Shown: in pieces, positions 1 through 46,508 of the stretch | How positions within the stretch are numbered: the first letter of the stretch is position 1 | How the letters are laid out: every line of letters begins with the position of its first letter | Assembly: GCA_014323545.1 (NCBI GenBank) | Contig: CP058647.1 | Coordinates: forward strand, 502,001 to 566,000 | DNA: 64,000 nt | Source of the DNA: Hyphobacterium sp. CCMP332 | Lineage (GTDB): Bacteria; Bacteroidota; Bacteroidia; Cytophagales; CCMP332 | Direction of reading: 5' to 3' | Notes under the pieces: generated by a model | The model's input: only the letters and a program-made list of their open reading frames with translations | Databases searched by the model: none | Told to the model about the DNA's origin: nothing | Translations under genes and position numbers: made by a program

Positions 1-313
1 CATAAGAAAGCACTCTTCCCGAGCCATCAGCACTAAGCAATTGTGCAAAATCCGGGTGAAATGCCAATGCCGAAATTGGGTCATTATGGAAATTGGATTG
101 GCGTATCTCCTTTTCAGCATCAAAATTCCAAATGGTGTATGAATTATTTCCCTGACTACTCGCCAGCCATCGCTCATTATTGTGATAATCAATTAAAACA
201 ACAGGCGTAGTATGACCCTTTGGAACAATTAATTCAGCCTCCTGGGCGAGTATATGACCACAACTAAGAAAAACACAATAGAAAAATGAAGAAAAGGAGA
301 AACTTATTTTCAA
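1..313 (-). CDS. Secreted WD40-repeat protein, N-terminal part (cut by window edge)
   Basis: This minus-strand frame runs off the left edge, so only about 104 N-terminal residues are visible. The first codon I can support is TTG at 311-313; an in-frame stop lies a short way upstream and no ATG falls between. The product begins with a signal peptide (about 21 residues ending in HILAQ). Beta-propeller-like sequence follows, with tryptophan-bearing strands such as 'NSYTIWNFDAEKEI' and 'ISALAFHPDFAQLLSADGSG', typical of WD40 blades. It starts 8 bases after the stop of the DUF962 gene, so the two are probably co-transcribed. The layout (signal peptide, then WD40 blades) is the same as at the N-terminus of the WD40-caspase protein at 42724-44547, but whether a peptidase domain follows cannot be seen. 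Confidence 0.7.
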   Translation of the reverse strand, partial: MKISFSFSSFFYCVFLSCGHILAQEAELIVPKGHTTPVVLIDYHNNERWLASSQGNNSYTIWNFDAEKEIRQSNFHNDPISALAFHPDFAQLLSADGSGRVLSY

Positions 314-321
314 TTCAATTC

Positions 322-804
322 TTAATATGGAATTCCGGTTTTTTTATATATGAAATGCAATAACCAAATTGGACCTATTAGTAAAAATTGTACATCTTTT
401 AAAAAGGATGGTTTTTTGCCTTCAATATTATGTCCAAAAAATTGACCTACCCAGGCCAATACAAATACAATTATAGAAAACTGCCAGAGTGGTAATTCTA
501 GATATTTATCAATCGCATAACAAGACCATAGTAAAGCATAAGAGATGATTATCATACCTATGGCCAATGCAATGGATAATCGGAAGTAATAAAGCAAGGC
601 AAAAATGATAAACAGGCTTGCAAAATTTACATACTTCTGAAAAGCTGATGGAAAAAATCCTTGTATAAAATCACTCGGAATTGACCAAAGCAGACCAAGT
701 AAACTAAATGTGATGGCGGGAACACAAATCCAGTGAATTAATTTATTGGTAGGGTTTTGATGACTAGACCCGTACTCTTCAAGAAGTCTATCAATTGTTC
801 TCAT
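322..804 (-). CDS. DUF962 / Mpo1-like family membrane protein
   Basis: 160 residues. The N-terminal 'SSHQNPTNKLIHWICVP' and C-terminal 'WVGQFFGHNIEGKKPSF' segments carry the conserved His/Asn/Glu pattern of the DUF962 family. Its yeast member Mpo1 is an Fe(II)-dependent dioxygenase that shortens 2-hydroxy fatty acids. Four hydrophobic segments (about residues 26-46, 58-78, 80-97 and 105-122) fit an integral inner-membrane protein, and the length is normal for bacterial members. The ATG at 802-804 is the only sensible start. It lies 8 bases upstream of the secreted WD40 gene. The enzymatic role in bacteria is inferred from the yeast protein only. Confidence 0.75.
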   Translation of the reverse strand: MRTIDRLLEEYGSSHQNPTNKLIHWICVPAITFSLLGLLWSIPSDFIQGFFPSAFQKYVNFASLFIIFALLYYFRLSIALAIGMIIISYALLWSCYAIDKYLELPLWQFSIIVFVLAWVGQFFGHNIEGKKPSFLKDVQFLLIGPIWLLHFIYKKTGIPY

Positions 805-34925: not shown

Positions 34926-36584
34926 ATGAGAATGAAGAAACTCATTTTGATATTAATACTTTTCACAGCTTTTTCTAACAATATTGTTTTATCTCAGAAA
35001 TTAGAAAATACAGCATTAATAGCTTTGGATAGCATCAATAGTGAATTTGACGATTCTTCGCCTTTTGTTGAAAGTACTTCCAAACAGCTGTTCTTTAGTA
35101 AAAGAAACAAGGCTGGCGATACAGATGCGTTTTTAGCAGAATGGAATGGCACGAGCTGGTCTAATAACCCAATATCCTTATCCATTAATAATCGATTTGA
35201 TAATGAGATTTACCATGTCGATTCAAAGGGGCTCATTTATTTCCAAAAAGCTATTTTAAATAATGCAGGCCAAGCCATTTTTGGAATATTCACCACAGAA
35301 TTCAACGAAGGAAAATGGTCCATACCCATTAGGCAAAGCATAAAATACTTTAATAACAAGTCCAGCGATCAATCATTTTGTTTAAACAAACATGGGGATA
35401 TTATGCTAATATCAATGCAAAGTTATTTCAGCTATGGTGTAGAAGATATTTATGTGTCATTTAGAAATGACAACAATTCATGGACTGAGCCGAAAAACCT
35501 GGGCAATTCAATTAATACGCCATATGAAGAATTTACACCCTTTCTGGATGATGATGATCGCACTTTGTATTTTTCTTCAAATGGGCATCCAGGTGGTTTT
35601 GGAAGTAAGGATATTTGGGTTTCTTATCGATTGGACAGTACATGGACCAAATGGTCTTCACCGGTCAACTTAGGGGCTAATGTAAATACCATGGGAATGG
35701 AAATGTCTTTTAGGAAGACCGGTATAAGTCAAATTCCATTTCTTGTAGTATCGTCCAGAACCAGCGATGGTCAATCAGATATTTTTGGTTTAAAACTCGA
35801 CAAATCGGAATTGGATTCTTTGATCTTAGCAGTAAAACCTGTTGAAAAGATAAGCACAACGATTGATTCAATTGGAGAAATAAATGTAATTATTGATTCA
35901 AACATCAGCGCAAATTTATCCGATACAATAAATGCCGTTGATTCATTAAATACTCATTTACTGGACAGCACGAATAACATCCTTATAATTAGCACCAAAA
36001 ACAGATCGAACAATCAAGCTATTCCAAGTTTGGTTATTTACAAAAATCGAATCAAAAGCGACAGCATTTATCTTGAAAGAGATAGTGTTTTAGAAATTAG
36101 CTGCGAGTGGTTAGATACCGTGGAAATTAATGTAAGATCACAATATTTTCTACCTCAGACAAAAACTATCATTTTTGAGAATCGCCATTTTGGAATTAAA
36201 CTGGAAGAAGAAATTTTCCTCGATAGTTTGGAAATAGGCAAATCGATACAATTTGAACATGTCTTATTTAAAAGAGGAACGCCCGAACTCCTGGATCAAT
36301 CCTACGGAGACCTGGACTATGTGGCTCAAATTTTAAATAAAAATGAAGACCTAAATATTCAAATCGCTGGGCATACAGATAATTCGGGAAATGCCTATCT
36401 AAACTATATATTAAGTGAAAAAAGAGCGAATACAATCAAAAAATATTTAATAAATAAGGGAATAAATCCCGCCCGAATTGAAACTAAAGGATATGGTGGC
36501 ACTCAACCAATAGCCAGCAATGAAAGCGAAGAAACAATGAAACTCAATAGACGAGTGGAATTCAAATTAATCAAAAATAAATAG
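34926..36584 (+). CDS. OmpA-family protein with PD40 propeller
   Basis: 552 residues. Signal peptide about 1-23 ('ILFTAFSNNIVLSQ'). The N-terminal half has PD40/WD40-like blades ('DSSPFVESTSKQLFFSKRN', 'YEEFTPFLDDDDRTLYFSSN' then 'GHPGGFGSKDIWVSYRLD'). A beta-sandwich linker follows, then an OmpA-C peptidoglycan-binding domain (about 440-552: 'FKRGTPELLDQSY', 'IQIAGHTDNSGN' and 'LSEKRANTIKKYL'). Unlike the PorE-like protein at 44598-46508 it lacks the TPR and CRD regions. There is no lipobox. A YfiR-family gene follows 117 bases later. Confidence 0.85.
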   Translation: MRMKKLILILILFTAFSNNIVLSQKLENTALIALDSINSEFDDSSPFVESTSKQLFFSKRNKAGDTDAFLAEWNGTSWSNNPISLSINNRFDNEIYHVDSKGLIYFQKAILNNAGQAIFGIFTTEFNEGKWSIPIRQSIKYFNNKSSDQSFCLNKHGDIMLISMQSYFSYGVEDIYVSFRNDNNSWTEPKNLGNSINTPYEEFTPFLDDDDRTLYFSSNGHPGGFGSKDIWVSYRLDSTWTKWSSPVNLGANVNTMGMEMSFRKTGISQIPFLVVSSRTSDGQSDIFGLKLDKSELDSLILAVKPVEKISTTIDSIGEINVIIDSNISANLSDTINAVDSLNTHLLDSTNNILIISTKNRSNNQAIPSLVIYKNRIKSDSIYLERDSVLEISCEWLDTVEINVRSQYFLPQTKTIIFENRHFGIKLEEEIFLDSLEIGKSIQFEHVLFKRGTPELLDQSYGDLDYVAQILNKNEDLNIQIAGHTDNSGNAYLNYILSEKRANTIKKYLINKGINPARIETKGYGGTQPIASNESEETMKLNRRVEFKLIKNK

Positions 36585-36701
36585 TTGAATTTTATTGATT
36601 TTATTACCTAAATAGTAATTATTCTAATAAGCATTACCCTTTTTCACTACTTCTTTTTAACATTGAACTTAGATTATTATTAATTCCATTACTATCGTCA
36701 T

Positions 36702-37235
36702 ATGAGGTTATTTTATCTCCTTTTAGTGTTATTGCTATTTGTGGGTTTCAAATCGGCAAATTACAATCCCGGAGAAGAGCAAAGGCTTAAATTTCTTTAT
36801 TTAAAAAATTTCATTAAGAATATTGAATGGCCAAAGGATTCAAAGAGACATGAATTCAAAATTGGAATTTTAGGTGAAAGGAATATTTACAATAAGATTT
36901 CTATGAGCAATATTAAACCTGAACATGCCAATGGCTCAAATATCGCTTATTATTTTTTTGAAGACGCAGATCATTTACTTGATTGTCAATTGATTTATAT
37001 TCCAAATCAAAAATCCTATCAGTTGGCAAAAGTTGTTAAACAATATCAAAATCAATCAGTATTAATCGTAAGTGAAGCACCGAATGCCTGCAAAAGAGGG
37101 TCTATGATTAATTTCTATAAATCATCTGAAAATAAAATATCTTTTGAATACAGCGCCGATGCATTGCGAAATGCCGGGTTATTATATTCTAGTAATTTTA
37201 TGGAGCAGGGCAAGCTTGTCAACGCAATACAATAA
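36702..37235 (+). CDS. YfiR family protein (DUF4154), periplasmic
   Basis: 177 residues. Signal peptide about 1-19, then a YfiR-like core: 'QRLKFLYLKNFIKNIEWP', 'FKIGILGERNIYNKI', 'CQLIYIPNQKSYQLAK', 'VLIVSEAPNACKRGSMINF' and the end 'DALRNAGLLYSSNFM'. In Pseudomonas, YfiR is a periplasmic repressor of the diguanylate cyclase YfiN and is sequestered by the OmpA-like YfiB. Here an OmpA-family gene precedes it, but no diguanylate cyclase is near. Cys residues are at the disulfide-prone 'CQL' and 'NACK' positions. Confidence 0.8.
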   Translation: MRLFYLLLVLLLFVGFKSANYNPGEEQRLKFLYLKNFIKNIEWPKDSKRHEFKIGILGERNIYNKISMSNIKPEHANGSNIAYYFFEDADHLLDCQLIYIPNQKSYQLAKVVKQYQNQSVLIVSEAPNACKRGSMINFYKSSENKISFEYSADALRNAGLLYSSNFMEQGKLVNAIQ

Positions 37236-39936: not shown

Positions 39937-40743
39937 ATGAATGCCAATTTGCTTTTTGCAATTGGCATTCTTCTTATACCCCTATCCTGTAACGACGACA
40001 ATGATTTTTTGATACTTGATGTTGTTCCTCAGGATATTTTTAAAGTTTATCCTATTGATGAACCGGTAATATTCTTTACGCGCTCTCAAAGCTCTACAGA
40101 TAATTTAAGCAGATTTACGATAGCTGTAAGAGAAGAAAATGAAGTTAATCGTAGCATTGTTTTCGATAGCGCAATTTCAGGTAGTTTTTTTGAATACAAT
40201 TTTGGCTTTCCGAGACCTTTGGATCAGTCCAGAGAATATGATTTTGAATTCAAAGTATATACCAGTGATGGAAAATCAACCACGCAATTTCGATCGGCTC
40301 TGATAATTTATGATTCATTAGAAGTTCCTCTCACAGAAACTACAGGTCATAGAATTTATCCGAAACTTACTCAAAATCCAGATGGATTTGATTTGATAAA
40401 CAGAGTTGCAGTATTTACGGATACAGCACTTCTCGATACAAATACAGTAGATATTTATGAATTGGCCGACACAACGGTAAACCTCACCAGAATCTGGAGA
40501 AGTAATACCAATGGCAAATTTGTTCGGTTTAATGGCTTTGATTATCCCAATGCAACCTTGTCCAAATTAATAGAGGCATACGAATCAGGTCAGAAACTTG
40601 ATCAAATGATAAATATCCAGGAAGATGATATAATTATTTTTCATTCAAGTGAAAGAGCCGTTTATGCCGCAATTAAAATTGATGAAATAGAAAGCGGCGA
40701 CTCTGTAACAAATGCTTTTTACGAGTTCAATTTGAAAAAATGA
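39937..40743 (+). CDS. Lipoprotein, unrecognised, Asp-rich after the lipid Cys
   Basis: 268 residues from ATG 39937, which puts the lipobox 'GILLIPLSC' (Cys at about 18) at normal distance; a TTG at 39916 would add seven residues. 'CNDDNDF' directly after the Cys resembles Bacteroidota lipoprotein export signals for surface display (acidic residues just after Cys). The rest is beta-sandwich-like ('EPVIFFTRSQSSTDNLSRF', 'EYDFEFKVYTSDGKSTTQF'). No family recognised. It overlaps the convergent CHASE2 gene by 25 bases. Confidence 0.65.
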   Translation: MNANLLFAIGILLIPLSCNDDNDFLILDVVPQDIFKVYPIDEPVIFFTRSQSSTDNLSRFTIAVREENEVNRSIVFDSAISGSFFEYNFGFPRPLDQSREYDFEFKVYTSDGKSTTQFRSALIIYDSLEVPLTETTGHRIYPKLTQNPDGFDLINRVAVFTDTALLDTNTVDIYELADTTVNLTRIWRSNTNGKFVRFNGFDYPNATLSKLIEAYESGQKLDQMINIQEDDIIIFHSSERAVYAAIKIDEIESGDSVTNAFYEFNLKK

Positions 40744-41909
40744 ACCAGTACATATTTCTCAAACATGGTTTTAAGCCTCTCAAAAATCTCCATATAAAGA
40801 GAAAATAGTAAAATAGTCAAGATAAAATCAAAAATGAGATAGGAAATAAAACTCATTAAAAAGAAATAAAGTAAATACCCTCCAAAACTTAATAAATCAG
40901 CATTAATCTTGTATTTACTCGATAGTTTATCGGTAAGAATATCAAAAATACTATCATTGCTAAAACAGATATAGGACACAAAAAAATAGCCTAATAGCAG
41001 GTATACAATAAATAAGGCATTGATTTGATTGGCTTTATTAATTATTGAGTTATAAATATTTACCAATATAATTGGCCCGGGAAGATCACCGTAAATCGTT
41101 TCAACTAAATCATTATCCTCGTAATCCCCTATAAAAATTAGTTTATCCTTAACTATTTTTTCAATACTTTCATCATCCAATAAGAGTAATTCCGACAAGT
41201 AAACTTTTCTTGTGATTTCTGATTCAAAAAGGTCATAATTCCTGACACCATGATCTACAACAAAAGAATTAAGATTAATTTTAAATGTAGACCAATTAAA
41301 ATGATCATCAGCCCTTAGTTTTTTGCCTTCAGTATATTCATACAATTGTACAGGGAGTGTCTTAATTGTATCGGCAAATACAAGTTTTGTTTTAAGAAAT
41401 ACACCTTCGGAAGTTTCAAACGATGTTGTAGCTGTTGGCACATCTAAAACAGGGTAATATGCTGTATCGTATTGACTATCGTAAAGCGAAACGCATAAAA
41501 TATTATCAAACTTATTTATTTCTTTTTCCAGATCCCTATCATATTCAGTAGGCACATCGAAAAAGATATCGCAAACAATAAATTTAGGACCATCATTGAA
41601 TTTTGCAACTCTCCGGAAAAAATCTAATAGAACAGGTCTTGATGTGACCGCTTCTTTTCCAATAGGAAACCCGTATTCATCATATTTATCGACCAGCATT
41701 TTTTCCCACGAAATGTCAATAAAAAGGTATTTAGACATATCCGGTTTATCATCGATATGAAGTACTAAACGTTTGAAATATGAACTTATCCGCAGTAAAG
41801 TAAGCTCTTCGTCATACAAAAATGGCTGTTTATGCCAGTAGTAACTTACAACAATGAGAAAAATAGCATGTATTGCCGAAACAAGCCACAATAAAATTTT
41901 GCGGCTCAT
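40719..41909 (-). CDS. CHASE2-domain membrane protein without output domain
   Basis: 396 residues. Membrane segment 1 at about 5-25. The extracytoplasmic region to about 290 carries CHASE2 features ('LFIDISWEKMLVDKYDEYG', 'PVLLDFFRRVAKFNDGPKFI', 'VCDIFFDVPTEYDRDLEKEI', and 'IVKDKLIFIGDYEDNDLVE' with 'GPIILVNIYNSII', the CHASE2 end motif). Three membrane segments follow (about 298-316, 338-358, 359-378) and a short tail. CHASE2 proteins normally continue into GGDEF, cyclase or kinase domains; none is present. It is the last gene of the caspase array, 3 bases after the secreted unknown. Confidence 0.75.
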   Translation of the reverse strand: MSRKILLWLVSAIHAIFLIVVSYYWHKQPFLYDEELTLLRISSYFKRLVLHIDDKPDMSKYLFIDISWEKMLVDKYDEYGFPIGKEAVTSRPVLLDFFRRVAKFNDGPKFIVCDIFFDVPTEYDRDLEKEINKFDNILCVSLYDSQYDTAYYPVLDVPTATTSFETSEGVFLKTKLVFADTIKTLPVQLYEYTEGKKLRADDHFNWSTFKINLNSFVVDHGVRNYDLFESEITRKVYLSELLLLDDESIEKIVKDKLIFIGDYEDNDLVETIYGDLPGPIILVNIYNSIINKANQINALFIVYLLLGYFFVSYICFSNDSIFDILTDKLSSKYKINADLLSFGGYLLYFFLMSFISYLIFDFILTILLFSLYMEIFERLKTMFEKYVLVHFFKLNS

Positions 41910-41912
41910 GTA

Positions 41913-42758
41913 TTAGAATTGAAAGCTTTTATCTATCCAATGTGCTACTGCTTCTCTGGATGTTTTGCCGTAAAATGAATTGAGATAATCATTAATTTCA
42001 AGCTTTATTGACTCTTTATCCATTTCTGCATCTTTATAAAAGGATATCAAAATATCACATTCTCCCTTTAACCTTTCTTCAGATAGTACTATTGGTTTGA
42101 ATGAAGAAATCAATCGGGTGTCTTTTTTAATTTCATCTCTATAAAAAAGTTTAGCCTCGGCAATTTGAGAATGGTCAACCGGCTCTCCATTGAAATTAAA
42201 AAGCTGATCCGGTCTAAATATCAGCAGATTATCCTCAAAATATACTTTTTTATTAACCGCTTCTTTTCCCAGAAAATATGAAAATATAAAATAACGTTGA
42301 TCATCCATTGGATAATAGGCAGGATCCAGTGTTAGAATCATTTCTTCCCCTATAAAAACAAAATTTTTATCACCAATCATCGCCTCCAAATCTATGATCT
42401 TATGATCTTCAGAGCCTCTGGTAGTCAATGCAGACATCCTTTTCATTGGAACCAGAACATCCTTAATTGTGGCCATCAACTCAGAGTCTCTTTCAGCACT
42501 GCTTTGACTTTTAAGAATGAAGCGTTCACCTTTTGAGCTAATCAATACGGCCATAGCTTGTGGATCTTTAAAAGTCAGTGATTCATTCAAATCAACTTTT
42601 GCTCCTCTGCTCAATTCTTGTTTTTCACTTCCATAAAGGATTGAACCCTTGGTAGTAACAACAGAATATGACTGAGCCATAATTGAGCTATAACCAATAA
42701 ATAAGGCTAATACCAGTAATATTTTAATTTTTCCTAAATATGAATTCACCACCTTCAT
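41913..42758 (-). CDS. Secreted protein of unknown family in the caspase-CHASE2 array
   Basis: 281 residues. Signal peptide about 1-28 ('ILLVLALFIGYSSIMAQ'). The N-terminal region has a FecR/SH3-like beta pattern ('VVTTKGSILYGSEKQELSRG', 'AKVDLNESLTFKDPQAMAVL' and 'GERFILKSQ'). A second domain starts near 'IIDLEAMIGDKNFVFIGEE' and 'LDPAYYPMDDQRYFIFSYF'. No catalytic motif is seen. Its first 35 bases overlap the 3' end of the caspase gene, which implies coupled expression. The ATG at 42756-42758 fits the signal peptide. I infer an adaptor or sensor between caspase and CHASE2 protein. Confidence 0.6.
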   Translation of the reverse strand: MKVVNSYLGKIKILLVLALFIGYSSIMAQSYSVVTTKGSILYGSEKQELSRGAKVDLNESLTFKDPQAMAVLISSKGERFILKSQSSAERDSELMATIKDVLVPMKRMSALTTRGSEDHKIIDLEAMIGDKNFVFIGEEMILTLDPAYYPMDDQRYFIFSYFLGKEAVNKKVYFEDNLLIFRPDQLFNFNGEPVDHSQIAEAKLFYRDEIKKDTRLISSFKPIVLSEERLKGECDILISFYKDAEMDKESIKLEINDYLNSFYGKTSREAVAHWIDKSFQF

Positions 42759-44547
42759 CTCCTACATTTTTTAATGGACTACCTATCGGAGTTTGATCCG
42801 AATTGTTTGATACTGCTACTTTAACATACTGAATTAATTCAGAAACAGGGACTTGCTCCTTGTCATTAGACTCCAAATACTTTAAAAAGTACGATGTAAA
42901 TGGACTATTCCTTTTGCCGTAATTTCCATCAGATACAAATTCAAGGCGACCGGATGTCAAGGCCCATCTCGATTTATATTTTTCTACATTTTCTACATAT
43001 CCACGAGTACTAGGCGAAAACAAGGAACCGCTGAAACAAGCGTCTGCAACCAGAAATATATGTTTCGAATCCAGCGCTTTTATGTATTTTAAAAGATTTG
43101 AATTTGGTAGATAATCAGTGGTTTTCCCGGATTCGGCATCAACAGGAATCCAATATCCTTCGTCCAGGTCTTTATCATAAAATCCATGACCGGAATAAAA
43201 TATTAATAGGTTGTCTTTTTCACCCACCTTGGTACGTAAATCCTGAAATGCATTGTGAATATTTTCCAATGTTGCCTCTTCTTCTGCGACCATATAAACA
43301 TTTTCATCGCGGAATTGATACTTTTCAGTTAAAATATCTTTAACATCAGAGGCATCATTTAAGGCATTGTTTAATCTTGGCCAGTGTTTATAATCGTTAA
43401 TTGCTATAAGCAACAAATGATTCTTGCCAGTTTCTAAAGGATTGAAATCAATATTTTCACTAAAACTAGAATTTGAAGTTTTTGTCGAACTTTTAGTGTT
43501 ATTTGAACTTGGGTTTGATGAGCTTCTAGCAGCTATCTGTCGATTTCCATTTCTATCGGGAATCTCCAAAACATATTTGCCCGCATTTAGCTGTTGCATT
43601 TCGAATAATCTAATGTTAGATCCTAGTTCCGCGGTTGCAAGATAAATTCCATCCCATGAAAATATTAAATCATTAATTGCAGCCTTATGTTTTTCTGTAT
43701 TAGCAAGCAAATTACCCGATTCGACGTCGTATATATTGACCGTTTTATCATAACTGCCAGATGCCAATAATTTTCCATTACCGCTTATATCGAGACTTGT
43801 GATATGCCCTTTTTGGCCACTTATTTCTATCAATGGTGAATAAACATTGTCGTTCCATACTCTAATGACCTTATCATGTCCGCCGCTTGCATAGACATTA
43901 TTCATTGGACTACGACTTAGATCATTTACCCAGGTTCTATCCATAGTCAGGGATTTCAATTCCTGGCCATTATTCAAATCCCAGGTTTTTAAGGTCAAAT
44001 CTTTACTCGTAGAAAAGAGATAATTCCAATCACTAGAAATACTAATGGCCGTCATGTCCTGACTATGACCATAAATTGTTCTTTGTAATTCTCCCGTACT
44101 TTTATCCCAAATACTGATTGTTTTATCAGCTGATGCGGTGATTACATTCCCTCTGAAATAATCGATTCGCAGATCCCAAACTTCCATTTCATGGGCTTTT
44201 ACATCAAATTCGATTTTACCTTTTTGGATATTCCAGGCAATGAGTCGATTATCTCTTCCGGTTGAATACAGCCAACCGGTTTCAAAATCAAATTCTAGCG
44301 CCTCTACAGGAGCTATATGACCTTTTAATGTTCTCATTTCACGAAATGTCTTAAGATCCCACAATATTATATTGGCATCTGTTCCTCCTGAAGCGAGAAT
44401 TGTATTATCAGAATTAAAAGCCAAAGCCTGGACGATGTGGCCATTCTTGGAGAGAGTTTTTAAGGTTTTTATCTCTTTTTGGGAATATGAGCATATACCT
44501 TGTAATACGAATAAAAAAGTGAATAATATCTTAATTGAGTTACTCAT
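42724..44547 (-). CDS. Secreted WD40-caspase (peptidase C14) protein
   Basis: 607 residues from ATG 44545-44547 (an in-frame start eight codons upstream would precede the signal peptide with acidic residues). Signal peptide about 1-23 ('FLFVLQGICSYSQ'). WD40 propeller about 35-320 with clear blades ('LASGGTDANIILWDLKTF', 'VITASADKTISIWDKSTGE', 'LLASGSYDKTVNIYDVESG'). Ser/Asn/Thr-rich linker 341-362. Caspase-like domain 376-607 with catalytic His454 in 'YSGHGF' and Cys504 in 'VADACFSGSLF'. All visible catalytic elements are intact. The signal peptide sends the peptidase out of the cytoplasm, unlike caspases in defence systems. Confidence 0.88.
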   Translation of the reverse strand: MSNSIKILFTFLFVLQGICSYSQKEIKTLKTLSKNGHIVQALAFNSDNTILASGGTDANIILWDLKTFREMRTLKGHIAPVEALEFDFETGWLYSTGRDNRLIAWNIQKGKIEFDVKAHEMEVWDLRIDYFRGNVITASADKTISIWDKSTGELQRTIYGHSQDMTAISISSDWNYLFSTSKDLTLKTWDLNNGQELKSLTMDRTWVNDLSRSPMNNVYASGGHDKVIRVWNDNVYSPLIEISGQKGHITSLDISGNGKLLASGSYDKTVNIYDVESGNLLANTEKHKAAINDLIFSWDGIYLATAELGSNIRLFEMQQLNAGKYVLEIPDRNGNRQIAARSSSNPSSNNTKSSTKTSNSSFSENIDFNPLETGKNHLLLIAINDYKHWPRLNNALNDASDVKDILTEKYQFRDENVYMVAEEEATLENIHNAFQDLRTKVGEKDNLLIFYSGHGFYDKDLDEGYWIPVDAESGKTTDYLPNSNLLKYIKALDSKHIFLVADACFSGSLFSPSTRGYVENVEKYKSRWALTSGRLEFVSDGNYGKRNSPFTSYFLKYLESNDKEQVPVSELIQYVKVAVSNNSDQTPIGSPLKNVGDEGGEFIFRKN

Positions 44548-44597
44548 TTCAAATTCAATTCCGTCTATCAAATTTACGAAATTCTACAATCAAAGTT

Positions 44598-46508
44598 CTA
44601 CTTTGTTATAACAGTGAATTCAATTCTTCGGTTTCTTTGTCTGTTTTCTTCCGAATTATTATCTTCTACAGGTTTAGATTCTCCATAACCCTTAAAACTT
44701 AAGCGATCAAGAGGCACCTTGTGTCCGACCAAAAAATCTCTTACGGCTTTTGCTCTATCTTCAGATAGTTTTTGATTATCCTCAATGCTTCCAATATTAT
44801 CTGTATGTCCTCCAATTTCAATTCTTACGTTTTCATTTATTTTAAGAAAATCAATTAGCTTTTCCAATTCAGGAATTGAGGATGAACGAAGGCTGGCTTT
44901 TCCAAAGTCAAAAAATATATTGTTCATAATGGTGCTGGCATTGACATTTATGGGCGTTAAAGCAATGTCAATATTTAGTTTACCAGAAGCATCCGAATCT
45001 TTTAAATTAAAATTTAAACTCTCAAACAAATAACCTTCACGACTTACAAAAAGCCCATACTCTGCACCTTCCGTTAAAACAATCAAGTATTCGCCATTAC
45101 TAGGATCAGAACTTACGCTTTGTTCGGTTTCATCTGTTTCCAAATCAATTAAATCAATTTGTGCACGCAATTTTTTCTTAGTCTCCTTATCGTAAACCGT
45201 ACCTTTCAAGGAGTAACTTTTGTTTTTTAATTGCAAGCGGGGTGGCAGGTCTAGTTTATATAAAAAGCTTCTTGCACCTTTTTCATCTTTTTCATTGGTC
45301 GAATAATAAGCCGTTTTGCCATCAGCTGCAACAAAAAATGCCACTTCATCTTTCCATGTATTAATTGGAGCCCCTAAATTTTCAGGTTTAGACCATTTGC
45401 CATCTTCTTTTAATGAATAGAATAAATCAAGTCCACCAAAACCGTCGTACCCATTTGTTGCGTAATAGAGCGCTTTATTGCTAGGATGTAAAACGGGAGA
45501 AAATTCTTCTCCTCGGGTATTAATTGGCGCCCCTACATTTCTAGCGGGGCTCCATCGGCCTAAATGATCTCTGGAAGAAACCCAAATATCCATGCGACCT
45601 TTACCACCGGGCCTGTCCGAAGAAAAATAAAGATGCCTACCATCAGCTGATAATGATGGTTGTGAATCCCAGTATTTTGAATTTACATTGGGGCCCATAT
45701 TATTTGGCTTGGTCCATTTATTTCCATTTCTGAAAGCTATATATAAATCACATCTACCTCTTCCTCCCGGTGAGTTGCATGATGTAAAAACAATCATTCT
45801 TCCATCCCCTGAAACTGTACATGTTCCTTCATTGTAAGCAGGCGTATTAATAACAGGAGAGATACTCTGTGGATTTACCCAATTGCCATCGTAAAAACGA
45901 CTGACGAATATGTCTTCTGTACTGATATCATCTCTGGCAGTAAAAAAAATATATTCCTGATCGGCTGTTAATACAGGAAAATATTGATATTGAAATTTAT
46001 TGAGTATTTCATCCAGTCTTTGAGGTTTTATTTTATCCGAGCGATGCGCCGGATCCATGGCATAATCGCAATTTTTTATTTTTTCCTCTGCAATAGCTTT
46101 TGACCTTTTGTCTCCAGGAATAAGAAATAAATATTTTTGAAAGGCATTTTTAGCATTTTCATAATTCCCATTTTCGAATTCTTCCATTCCAACAAAAAAA
46201 TGTGCTTTTCGAAATTTTCGATCATCGGGTTCTAAGGCAATTACTTTTTCGTACATTTTAAATGCCGTTTCCCTTTCACCATAGGAGTTGTATATAATAC
46301 CTTTAAGGAAATAAGCTTCCACAAACTGATCGTCTTTTTTTATCGCTTCATCCAGCAATTGCTGAGCCAGCTTGTAGTTTCTGCGTGAAGCTTCAGATTG
46401 AGCTTTTAGATAATACCTTTCGGCTTTTGCAGAACTCGTATGAAGAGCATCTTTATCCTGGGCCTTTATACTCAGTGAAAAAAAAAGAAAAACTATTAAA
46501 AATCTCAT
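44598..46508 (-). CDS. PorE-like OmpA protein: TPR, PD40, CRD, OmpA-C
   Basis: 636 residues. Signal peptide about 1-17 (ends SIKAQ). TPRs about 30-140 ('NYKLAQQLLDEAIKKDDQF', 'TAFKMYEKVIALEPDDRKF'). PD40 propeller about 170-420 ('EFSPVLHPSNKALYYATN', 'GGLDLFYSLKEDGKWSKPEN'). CRD-like beta-sandwich about 430-515. OmpA-C 525-636 with peptidoglycan-contact Asp570 ('IEIGGHTDNIG') and Arg585 ('LSEDRAKAV'). This is the domain order of PorE, the T9SS protein of Porphyromonas that anchors the complex to peptidoglycan. No lipobox is seen. It starts one base after queE stops and precedes the caspase gene by 50 bases. Confidence 0.85.
   Translation of the reverse strand: MRFLIVFLFFSLSIKAQDKDALHTSSAKAERYYLKAQSEASRRNYKLAQQLLDEAIKKDDQFVEAYFLKGIIYNSYGERETAFKMYEKVIALEPDDRKFRKAHFFVGMEEFENGNYENAKNAFQKYLFLIPGDKRSKAIAEEKIKNCDYAMDPAHRSDKIKPQRLDEILNKFQYQYFPVLTADQEYIFFTARDDISTEDIFVSRFYDGNWVNPQSISPVINTPAYNEGTCTVSGDGRMIVFTSCNSPGGRGRCDLYIAFRNGNKWTKPNNMGPNVNSKYWDSQPSLSADGRHLYFSSDRPGGKGRMDIWVSSRDHLGRWSPARNVGAPINTRGEEFSPVLHPSNKALYYATNGYDGFGGLDLFYSLKEDGKWSKPENLGAPINTWKDEVAFFVAADGKTAYYSTNEKDEKGARSFLYKLDLPPRLQLKNKSYSLKGTVYDKETKKKLRAQIDLIDLETDETEQSVSSDPSNGEYLIVLTEGAEYGLFVSREGYLFESLNFNLKDSDASGKLNIDIALTPINVNASTIMNNIFFDFGKASLRSSSIPELEKLIDFLKINENVRIEIGGHTDNIGSIEDNQKLSEDRAKAVRDFLVGHKVPLDRLSFKGYGESKPVEDNNSEENRQRNRRIEFTVITK

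Follow-up and report, generated by a model that had tools for sequence, protein, structure and literature searches.

The window, the whole 64,000-nucleotide stretch of Hyphobacterium sp. CCMP332 DNA analysed here, encodes a CHASE2 protein with no fused signalling output, the last of four envelope genes in one line that also encode an exported protein, MID, and an exported WD40-caspase (Table 1). Judged by sequence, the missing output is a trait that this protein shares with its family of homologues, and two protease families of one clan recur in the same place beside it. From this pattern we propose that a periplasm-facing CHASE2-MID module may control an exported caspase or CHAT protease, a reading that we believe and doubt in equal measure. 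The signal sensed by CHASE2 domains is described as not known in the available text of PMC5192318. A CHASE2 protein without its own output, linked to an exported caspase and in places even through fused genes, makes a small, testable system that bears both on CHASE2 sensing and on the role of exported bacterial caspases, for which we know of no regulator or job.

Table 1. Features discussed in the text (nucleotide coordinates refer to the window unless a locus is named; parts are given in residues)
Feature	Position	Strand	Basis or remark
Output-less CHASE2 protein, 396 aa	40719..41909	minus	ORF with ATG start, translation, PF05226, AlphaFold2
CHASE2 protein, TM1	3-26		
CHASE2 protein, CHASE2 domain	106-298		Pfam
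CHASE2 protein, C-terminal helices	298-316, 337-360, 366-395		366-395 partly tail
MID, exported protein, 281 aa	41913..42758	minus	3 bases between MID end and CHASE2 start
MID, signal peptide			Q at +1
MID, N-terminal beta domain	~30-105		
MID, Ig-like domain	~121-225		
MID, C-terminal helices	227-279		
Exported WD40-caspase (Peptidase C14)	42724..44571	minus	Overlaps MID; GHG and DACFSG motifs
TPR/PD40/OmpA protein	44598..46508	minus	PD40 E 1.4e-25, OmpA E 8.5e-24
OmpA/PD40 gene	34926-36584		
YfiR/HmsC-like gene	36702-37235		PF13689
Second output-less CHASE2 with exported partner	G000:C1 657050-659198 (L080:9051-11199)		Partner ends TPR-like
Row of C14 genes	L225:6941-16912		Upstream of CHASE2
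SpoIIE gene	L040:10318-11688	same as CHASE2	Directly downstream of CHASE2

The window CHASE2 protein and its operon

The Pfam CHASE2 profile (PF05226) matches the window protein with an E-value of 7.4e-8 and 32.7 bits, against a cut-off of 26.3, and the same ORF is recovered by a whole-genome CHASE2 search. The match is more than chance, because 36 other, hand-chosen rows of alignment A1, from which two cyclase-bearing rows were excluded, align along the length of the protein at 21-35% identity. R91, D124, G261, D262, D267 and G278 are invariant in 53 CHASE2 rows. An AlphaFold2 model built on a 53-row alignment (mean pLDDT 90.7, pTM 0.88) predicts helices at residues 3-26, 298-316, 321-333, 337-360 and 366-395 around a mixed alpha/beta domain, an arrangement of one N-terminal helix, an extracytoplasmic domain and three long C-terminal helices, with the short helix 321-333 placed between the first two of the three. 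A simple hydropathy scan marks residues 5-23, 298-316 and a broad stretch at 350-379, in which the last two helices are not parted, so that the count of three comes from the model. No domain follows the last helix, the tail being roughly 10-18 residues; the Pfam scan finds no domain besides CHASE2, and the fused cytoplasmic output of CHASE2 receptor enzymes (kinase, cyclase or GGDEF) is absent. With the model as query, Foldseek returned no match at E 0.001 or better, and a PDB sequence search gave no match of note.

The original prediction, made from the sequence alone, had named this ORF as a CHASE2 protein without signalling output, and the profile search it called for, together with the translation and the model, bears out both points; it named no strand, and the ORF proves to be on the minus strand. 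It had also singled out the three C-terminal helices; these appear in the model, and their supposed oddity falls away, as one N-terminal and three C-terminal helices are normal for CHASE2 according to the available accounts of a CHASE2 kinase and a Trichodesmium caspase-CHASE2 protein (PMC5192318, PMC3501461). The unusual trait of the window protein is the absent output rather than its helices.

The four genes lie on the minus strand in the order TPR/PD40/OmpA, WD40-caspase, MID and CHASE2. The caspase, whose true start is likely the ATG at residue 9 (about 44547), carries a WD40 part (E 6.8e-44) and a Peptidase_C14 domain at residues 386-595 (PF00656, E 1.9e-18, 67.5 bits against a cut-off of 21.4) with the GHG and DACFSG motifs of the His-Cys dyad. 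Orthocaspases are described as cleaving behind positively charged residues (PMC6426788). Both the caspase and MID begin with a signal-peptide-like hydrophobic stretch followed by Q at +1, the residue of the Bacteroidetes Q-rule for signal peptidase I substrates, as given in the available text of PMC5837995. The TPR/PD40/OmpA gene is not regularly kept with CHASE2: members of its related cluster, 7 in all, come within four genes of CHASE2 at 6 loci. The window caspase falls below the curated cut-off for EACC1-associated caspases (NF047832; 68.2 against 140 bits), and in a PADLOC search for anti-phage systems it matches a generic caspase model, with no match for CHASE2 or MID.

MID and a second CHASE2 pair

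MID has no Pfam or NCBIfam match and no PDB sequence match of note, and no Pfam FecR match was found in 28 members of its family at E-values up to 5 (HMMER filters on). Its AlphaFold2 model (pLDDT 87.8) predicts an N-terminal beta domain, an Ig-like domain and three C-terminal helices. Over residues 123-281 the model resembles the C-terminal domain of MtxA (4z29_B; 127 residues, rmsd 4.5, Z 5.7, thus below 8), which alone among the 50 matches listed reaches the C-terminal helices, the rest matching the Ig-like part; a sequence comparison of MID with MtxA found no match. Because MtxA is itself encoded beside a CHASE2-cyclase (available text of PMC4439547), we take the predicted fold likeness as a lead to shared ancestry, though with a Z below 8 it may reflect a common arrangement.

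The window's genome holds a second output-less CHASE2 protein, encoded with its own exported partner, which ends in a TPR-like part. Of 148 genomes of the order, 87 have this partner, which CHASE2 adjoins in 18 of the 20 loci examined. The pair follows the same two-gene logic as MID and CHASE2, and the CHASE2 profiles of the two align (hhalign 96%). The N-terminal domains of MID and the second partner align in hhalign at 94.9% with the signal peptide included and at 63.1% without it, against 0.1-0.2% in six column shuffles and 1.1% in reverse. The second pair differs in its TPR-like partner and in that no caspase is seen next door in the window's genome.

Spread of the family

Homologues of the window CHASE2 protein (P0001 as query) occur in 45 of 291 genomes of its order, Cytophagales. 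Among the order-wide matches listed, only two lie in frames longer than 600 aa, and both have a class III adenylate cyclase after the helices; the cyclase-bearing members are L068/L107 (689 aa) and L057 (616 aa), the latter adjoining a caspase. The CHASE2 parts of L057 and of a further locus, L228, fall below the Pfam CHASE2 model and were assigned to the family only through its own profile. Assembly G140 contains two sister copies of 58% identity, one an output-less CHASE2 encoded with MID (L053/L100) and the other a cyclase CHASE2 (L068/L107), with an SH-aLRT of 99 on a quick tree that L107 entered untrimmed, an effect limited by a 60% column filter. This pair offers a natural experiment for the gain or loss of output. 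A single output change on the tree was considered and rejected, as L107 and L057 form two separate cyclase rows.

Beyond the order, a scan of named genomes yielded 61 CHASE2 loci, mostly filed under Bacteroidota and including Flammeovirga, Flexithrix, Microscilla, Roseivirga, Pedobacter, Mucilaginibacter, Solitalea, Dokdonia, Prevotella and Muribaculaceae. In a phylum-wide sample, CHASE2 was found in 111 of 296 genomes; among the matches listed, most frames outside the class of the window's genome are 640-940 aa long, one of which was scanned and is a CHASE2-cyclase (L182), and six others measure 390-530 aa, so that short CHASE2 proteins exist in other classes too. A class-wide sample, searched with a profile of the more distant members, has the family only sporadically, with matches in 10 of 395 genomes, of which at least one (G720) lacks a CHASE2 ORF.

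Three contigs filed under Thalassobius, a cyanobacterium and Thalassovita (L082, L083 and L097) carry CHASE2 genes like those of Flexithrix relatives and are probably wrongly binned, as judged from the tree for the first two and from gene order for the third. Two loci filed under Desulfatirhabdium (L113, L117) may be wrongly binned or horizontally transferred.

Exported proteases beside CHASE2

The neighbourhoods were compared by calling ORFs in all loci and searching them with profiles made for MID, the caspase domain and CHAT. Of 77 distinct CHASE2 ORFs, four shorter than 320 aa were removed, leaving 73 loci; counts by gene offset use all 77. MID lies within two genes of CHASE2 in 47 of the 73 loci, a figure that leaves out the MID hidden in an N-joined ORF of L113, and no MID is recognised in the other 26, in some because the contig ends. 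A C14 or CHAT gene lies within two genes in 24 loci, which excludes a C14 gene (L117) and a CHAT gene (L046) three genes off, and none lies within that distance in 49, including six rows of the Flammeovirga clade. These counts answer the survey for nearby caspase genes that the original prediction had suggested, and they uphold the tie it drew to the secreted neighbours.

Counted by position, C14 or CHAT genes make up 25 of the 277 genes at offsets 1-2 and 5 of the 638 at offsets 3-11 (nominal Fisher p 1.4e-9, optimistic in that related genomes are counted), and 21 of the 25 lie on the CHASE2 strand, 4 on the other. The same comparison gave 5/277 near and 7/638 far for SpoIIE (p 0.36), 1 and 3 for histidine kinases, and 0 and 0 for class III cyclases, the kinase control profile having been made from one sequence and that for the cyclase from two; unlike C14 and CHAT genes, these are not enriched near CHASE2. 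A whole-genome C14 census was rejected as a background rate because it lists just 2 C14 matches for the window's genome and overlooks the window caspase despite that protein's Pfam score, which makes its counts lower bounds; the offset comparison and a set of C14 genes from elsewhere served instead. The caspase profile recovers 20 of the 20 C14 genes taken from elsewhere in the same genomes and is thus not tuned to the neighbours.

Pfam confirms all 13 neighbouring C14 genes sent, the window's aside (L037, L115, L119, L127, L135, L139, L129, L108, L066, L078, L058, L075 and L113), and all nine CHAT genes (L123, L124, L128, L133, L136, L141 with two, L065 and L125). C14 takes the place near CHASE2 in Cytophagales, Sphingobacteriales and Bacteroidales. 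Same-strand CHAT genes are found there in Flavobacteria, Marinilabiliaceae and a Bacteroidales MAG; in Microscilla, Roseivirga and a Saprospiraceae MAG, the CHAT gene lies on the opposite strand. We take the two to belong to the same protease clan (clan CD). The protease label changes 11 times on a quick tree of CHASE2 loci, which indicates that the pattern is not that of one clone. By a rough rule for export, a hydrophobic start followed by Q at +1, 21 of the 25 neighbouring proteases and 38 of 52 MIDs qualify, compared with 190 of 816 other ORFs.

MID-caspase fusions and further genomes

In a Muribaculaceae MAG (L135) and a Bacteroidales MAG (L139), the N-terminal domain of MID and a C14 domain are apparently joined in one ORF beside an output-less CHASE2. 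Both ORFs have a signal-peptide-like start and are unbroken, with no N; among 1383 ORFs searched with the MID profile, they are the two best matches outside MID itself, at E 0.0019 and 0.0089 with the third at 0.16, and their caspase domains are recognised by Pfam at E 5.6e-33 and 2.3e-26. We regard these predicted fusions as the strongest evidence for a link between MID and the caspase, the MID matches being weak taken alone. A candidate MID-CHASE2 fusion in L113 was rejected, its 584-aa ORF being two genes joined across a run of N.

A class-wide follow-up covered eight regions, seven with CHASE2 (L224-L230); L231 was dropped for having no CHASE2 ORF and a weak match in G596 was excluded. Two of the seven, L225 and L228, have MID and a Pfam-confirmed C14 gene within two genes of CHASE2; in L228 the order is C14-MID-CHASE2, with a MID match (E 1.8e-4) that is weak by itself. 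In L229, a Pfam-confirmed C14 gene lies three ORFs from CHASE2 on the same strand, with two doubtful ORFs between. A C14 match in L227 is on the other strand and comes from the profile only, unconfirmed by Pfam, and L224, L226 and L230 have neither MID nor caspase near CHASE2. L225 also presents a local caspase expansion: upstream of CHASE2 comes a row of three C14 genes, all confirmed by Pfam, plus a short C14 ORF, and MID lies downstream.

Comparison with known CHASE2 systems

CHASE2 receptors with an exported partner are known from other groups, where, in the accounts available, they drive a fused kinase or cyclase (PMC5192318, PMC4439547). The BiofilmReg-type operon of Burkholderia, a FecR/LysM protein with a CHASE2 histidine kinase, has the same succession of one helix, CHASE2 and three helices and an exported partner next door; it differs in its kinase output and response regulator, where the window operon has no output and a caspase (PMC5192318). 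In Magnetospirillum, mtxA is likewise an exported partner beside CHASE2, but this CHASE2 has an adenylate cyclase as output and that of the window none (PMC4439547; PDB 4z29). In Sinorhizobium, the CHASE2 cyclases CyaD1, CyaD2 and CyaK also respond through another envelope protein, NsrA, which is an outer-membrane barrel, and their output is cAMP (PMC13001267).

Two further systems resemble the window operon in their lack of a classic output. The Trichodesmium metacaspase-CHASE2 protein links a caspase to CHASE2, with four helices and no C-terminal output, but its caspase is fused and predicted to be cytoplasmic, while that of the window is a separate protein, exported as judged by its signal sequence (PMC3501461, PMC2853523). 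The EACC2-CHASE2 proteins of TRADD-N systems combine CHASE2 and membrane helices; the window protein has CHASE2 only, and its caspase scores below the cut-off for EACC1-associated caspases (PMC8195603). These comparisons follow the portions of the cited papers available to us. A literature search, with subscription journals mostly outside its scope, did not find an output-less CHASE2 with an exported caspase described in Bacteroidota; this combination appears to be new, and the pairing of CHASE2 with an exported partner is already known.

Proposed mechanism and alternatives

In the mechanism that we propose, the CHASE2 protein would be an inner-membrane receptor with its sensing domain, its partner and its output all on the periplasmic side. 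MID, which has a signal peptide for its own export, would bind the CHASE2 domain, and together the two would hold or gate an exported clan-CD protease, C14 here and, elsewhere, C14 or TPR-CHAT. A change in the pair, caused by an envelope ligand or by stress, would release or activate periplasmic proteolysis, and the four membrane helices would provide an anchor and a dimer interface, not a path to a cytoplasmic enzyme. The proposal draws on the CHASE2 identity, the family-wide missing output, the operon layout, the export signals, the recurrent neighbourhood and the two putative fusions; from these we infer the physical binding, the direction of control, the substrate and the signal. With no enzyme attached to CHASE2 and an exported protease, caspase or CHAT, recurring beside it and sometimes fused to the partner, periplasmic proteolysis as output would be the simplest reading. 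Signalling within the membrane or periplasm, as originally predicted, is thus deduced from gene context and the two fusions. Caspases adjoin CHASE2 in only a third of loci and may be one of several outputs. More tentatively, these genes may constitute a Bacteroidota relay in which MID couples an output-less CHASE2 to an exported protease, caspase or CHAT, at the same membrane face, no cytoplasmic enzyme being needed, and which may run from inside to outside. If true, this would be a second way, besides cytoplasmic caspases, for bacteria to use this protease clan.

The main rival, which we consider rather unlikely, is transmembrane signalling from CHASE2 to a separate output in the cytoplasm, for example through association with a cyclase-bearing CHASE2 or through a short tail that binds another enzyme, the caspase neighbour being an extra. 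It is the main rival because the family can carry a cyclase and the G140 sisters, of which the output-less one has MID, differ in output. The existence of cyclase-bearing members counts against a periplasmic output, as it implies that the helices can work with a cytoplasmic one, and class III cyclases are at hand in 35 of the 41 genomes searched, with 6 matches in the window's genome. The six others (G015, G047, G103, G116, G171 and G208) have no class III cyclase match, which weakens the case for such a partner, as does the lack of enrichment of SpoIIE, kinase and cyclase genes near CHASE2, even though SpoIIE lies within four genes in nine loci and once adjoins CHASE2 on the same strand.

Less probable still is that CHASE2 and MID form a structural or stress-sensing envelope pair, near which exported caspases lie only through the clustering of exported genes. 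In many loci, for example in Flammeovirga and Flexithrix, MID and CHASE2 do occur together with no caspase among the nearest two genes, and the order commonly has a second CHASE2 of the output-less kind, paired with another exported protein. A mere clustering of exported genes fits poorly with an enrichment confined to the nearest two genes, with two protease families in the same place, and with MID fused to C14 in two genomes. Decay of a former CHASE2 cyclase, with loss of the enzyme domain, would account for the absent output of the window ORF, but we consider this very improbable: the ORFs are long, six residues are invariant across the alignment, and the CHASE2 ORF and its partner gene are kept across orders.

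Other genes near CHASE2

SpoIIE was checked as an output in trans because of a cluster among the neighbours, in which Pfam finds SpoIIE in 8 of 9 genes scanned. The loci with SpoIIE within four genes of CHASE2 are L040, L060, L078, L095, L100, L104, L105, L109 and L110, two near-identical pairs among them. Elsewhere in the window, an OmpA/PD40 gene is followed by a YfiR/HmsC-like gene (34926-37235), a pair that presumably resembles yfiB and yfiR; a scan of adjacent genes found no yfiN-type gene. Near the CHASE2 gene of L100, SpoIIE is fused to a YfiR-like domain.
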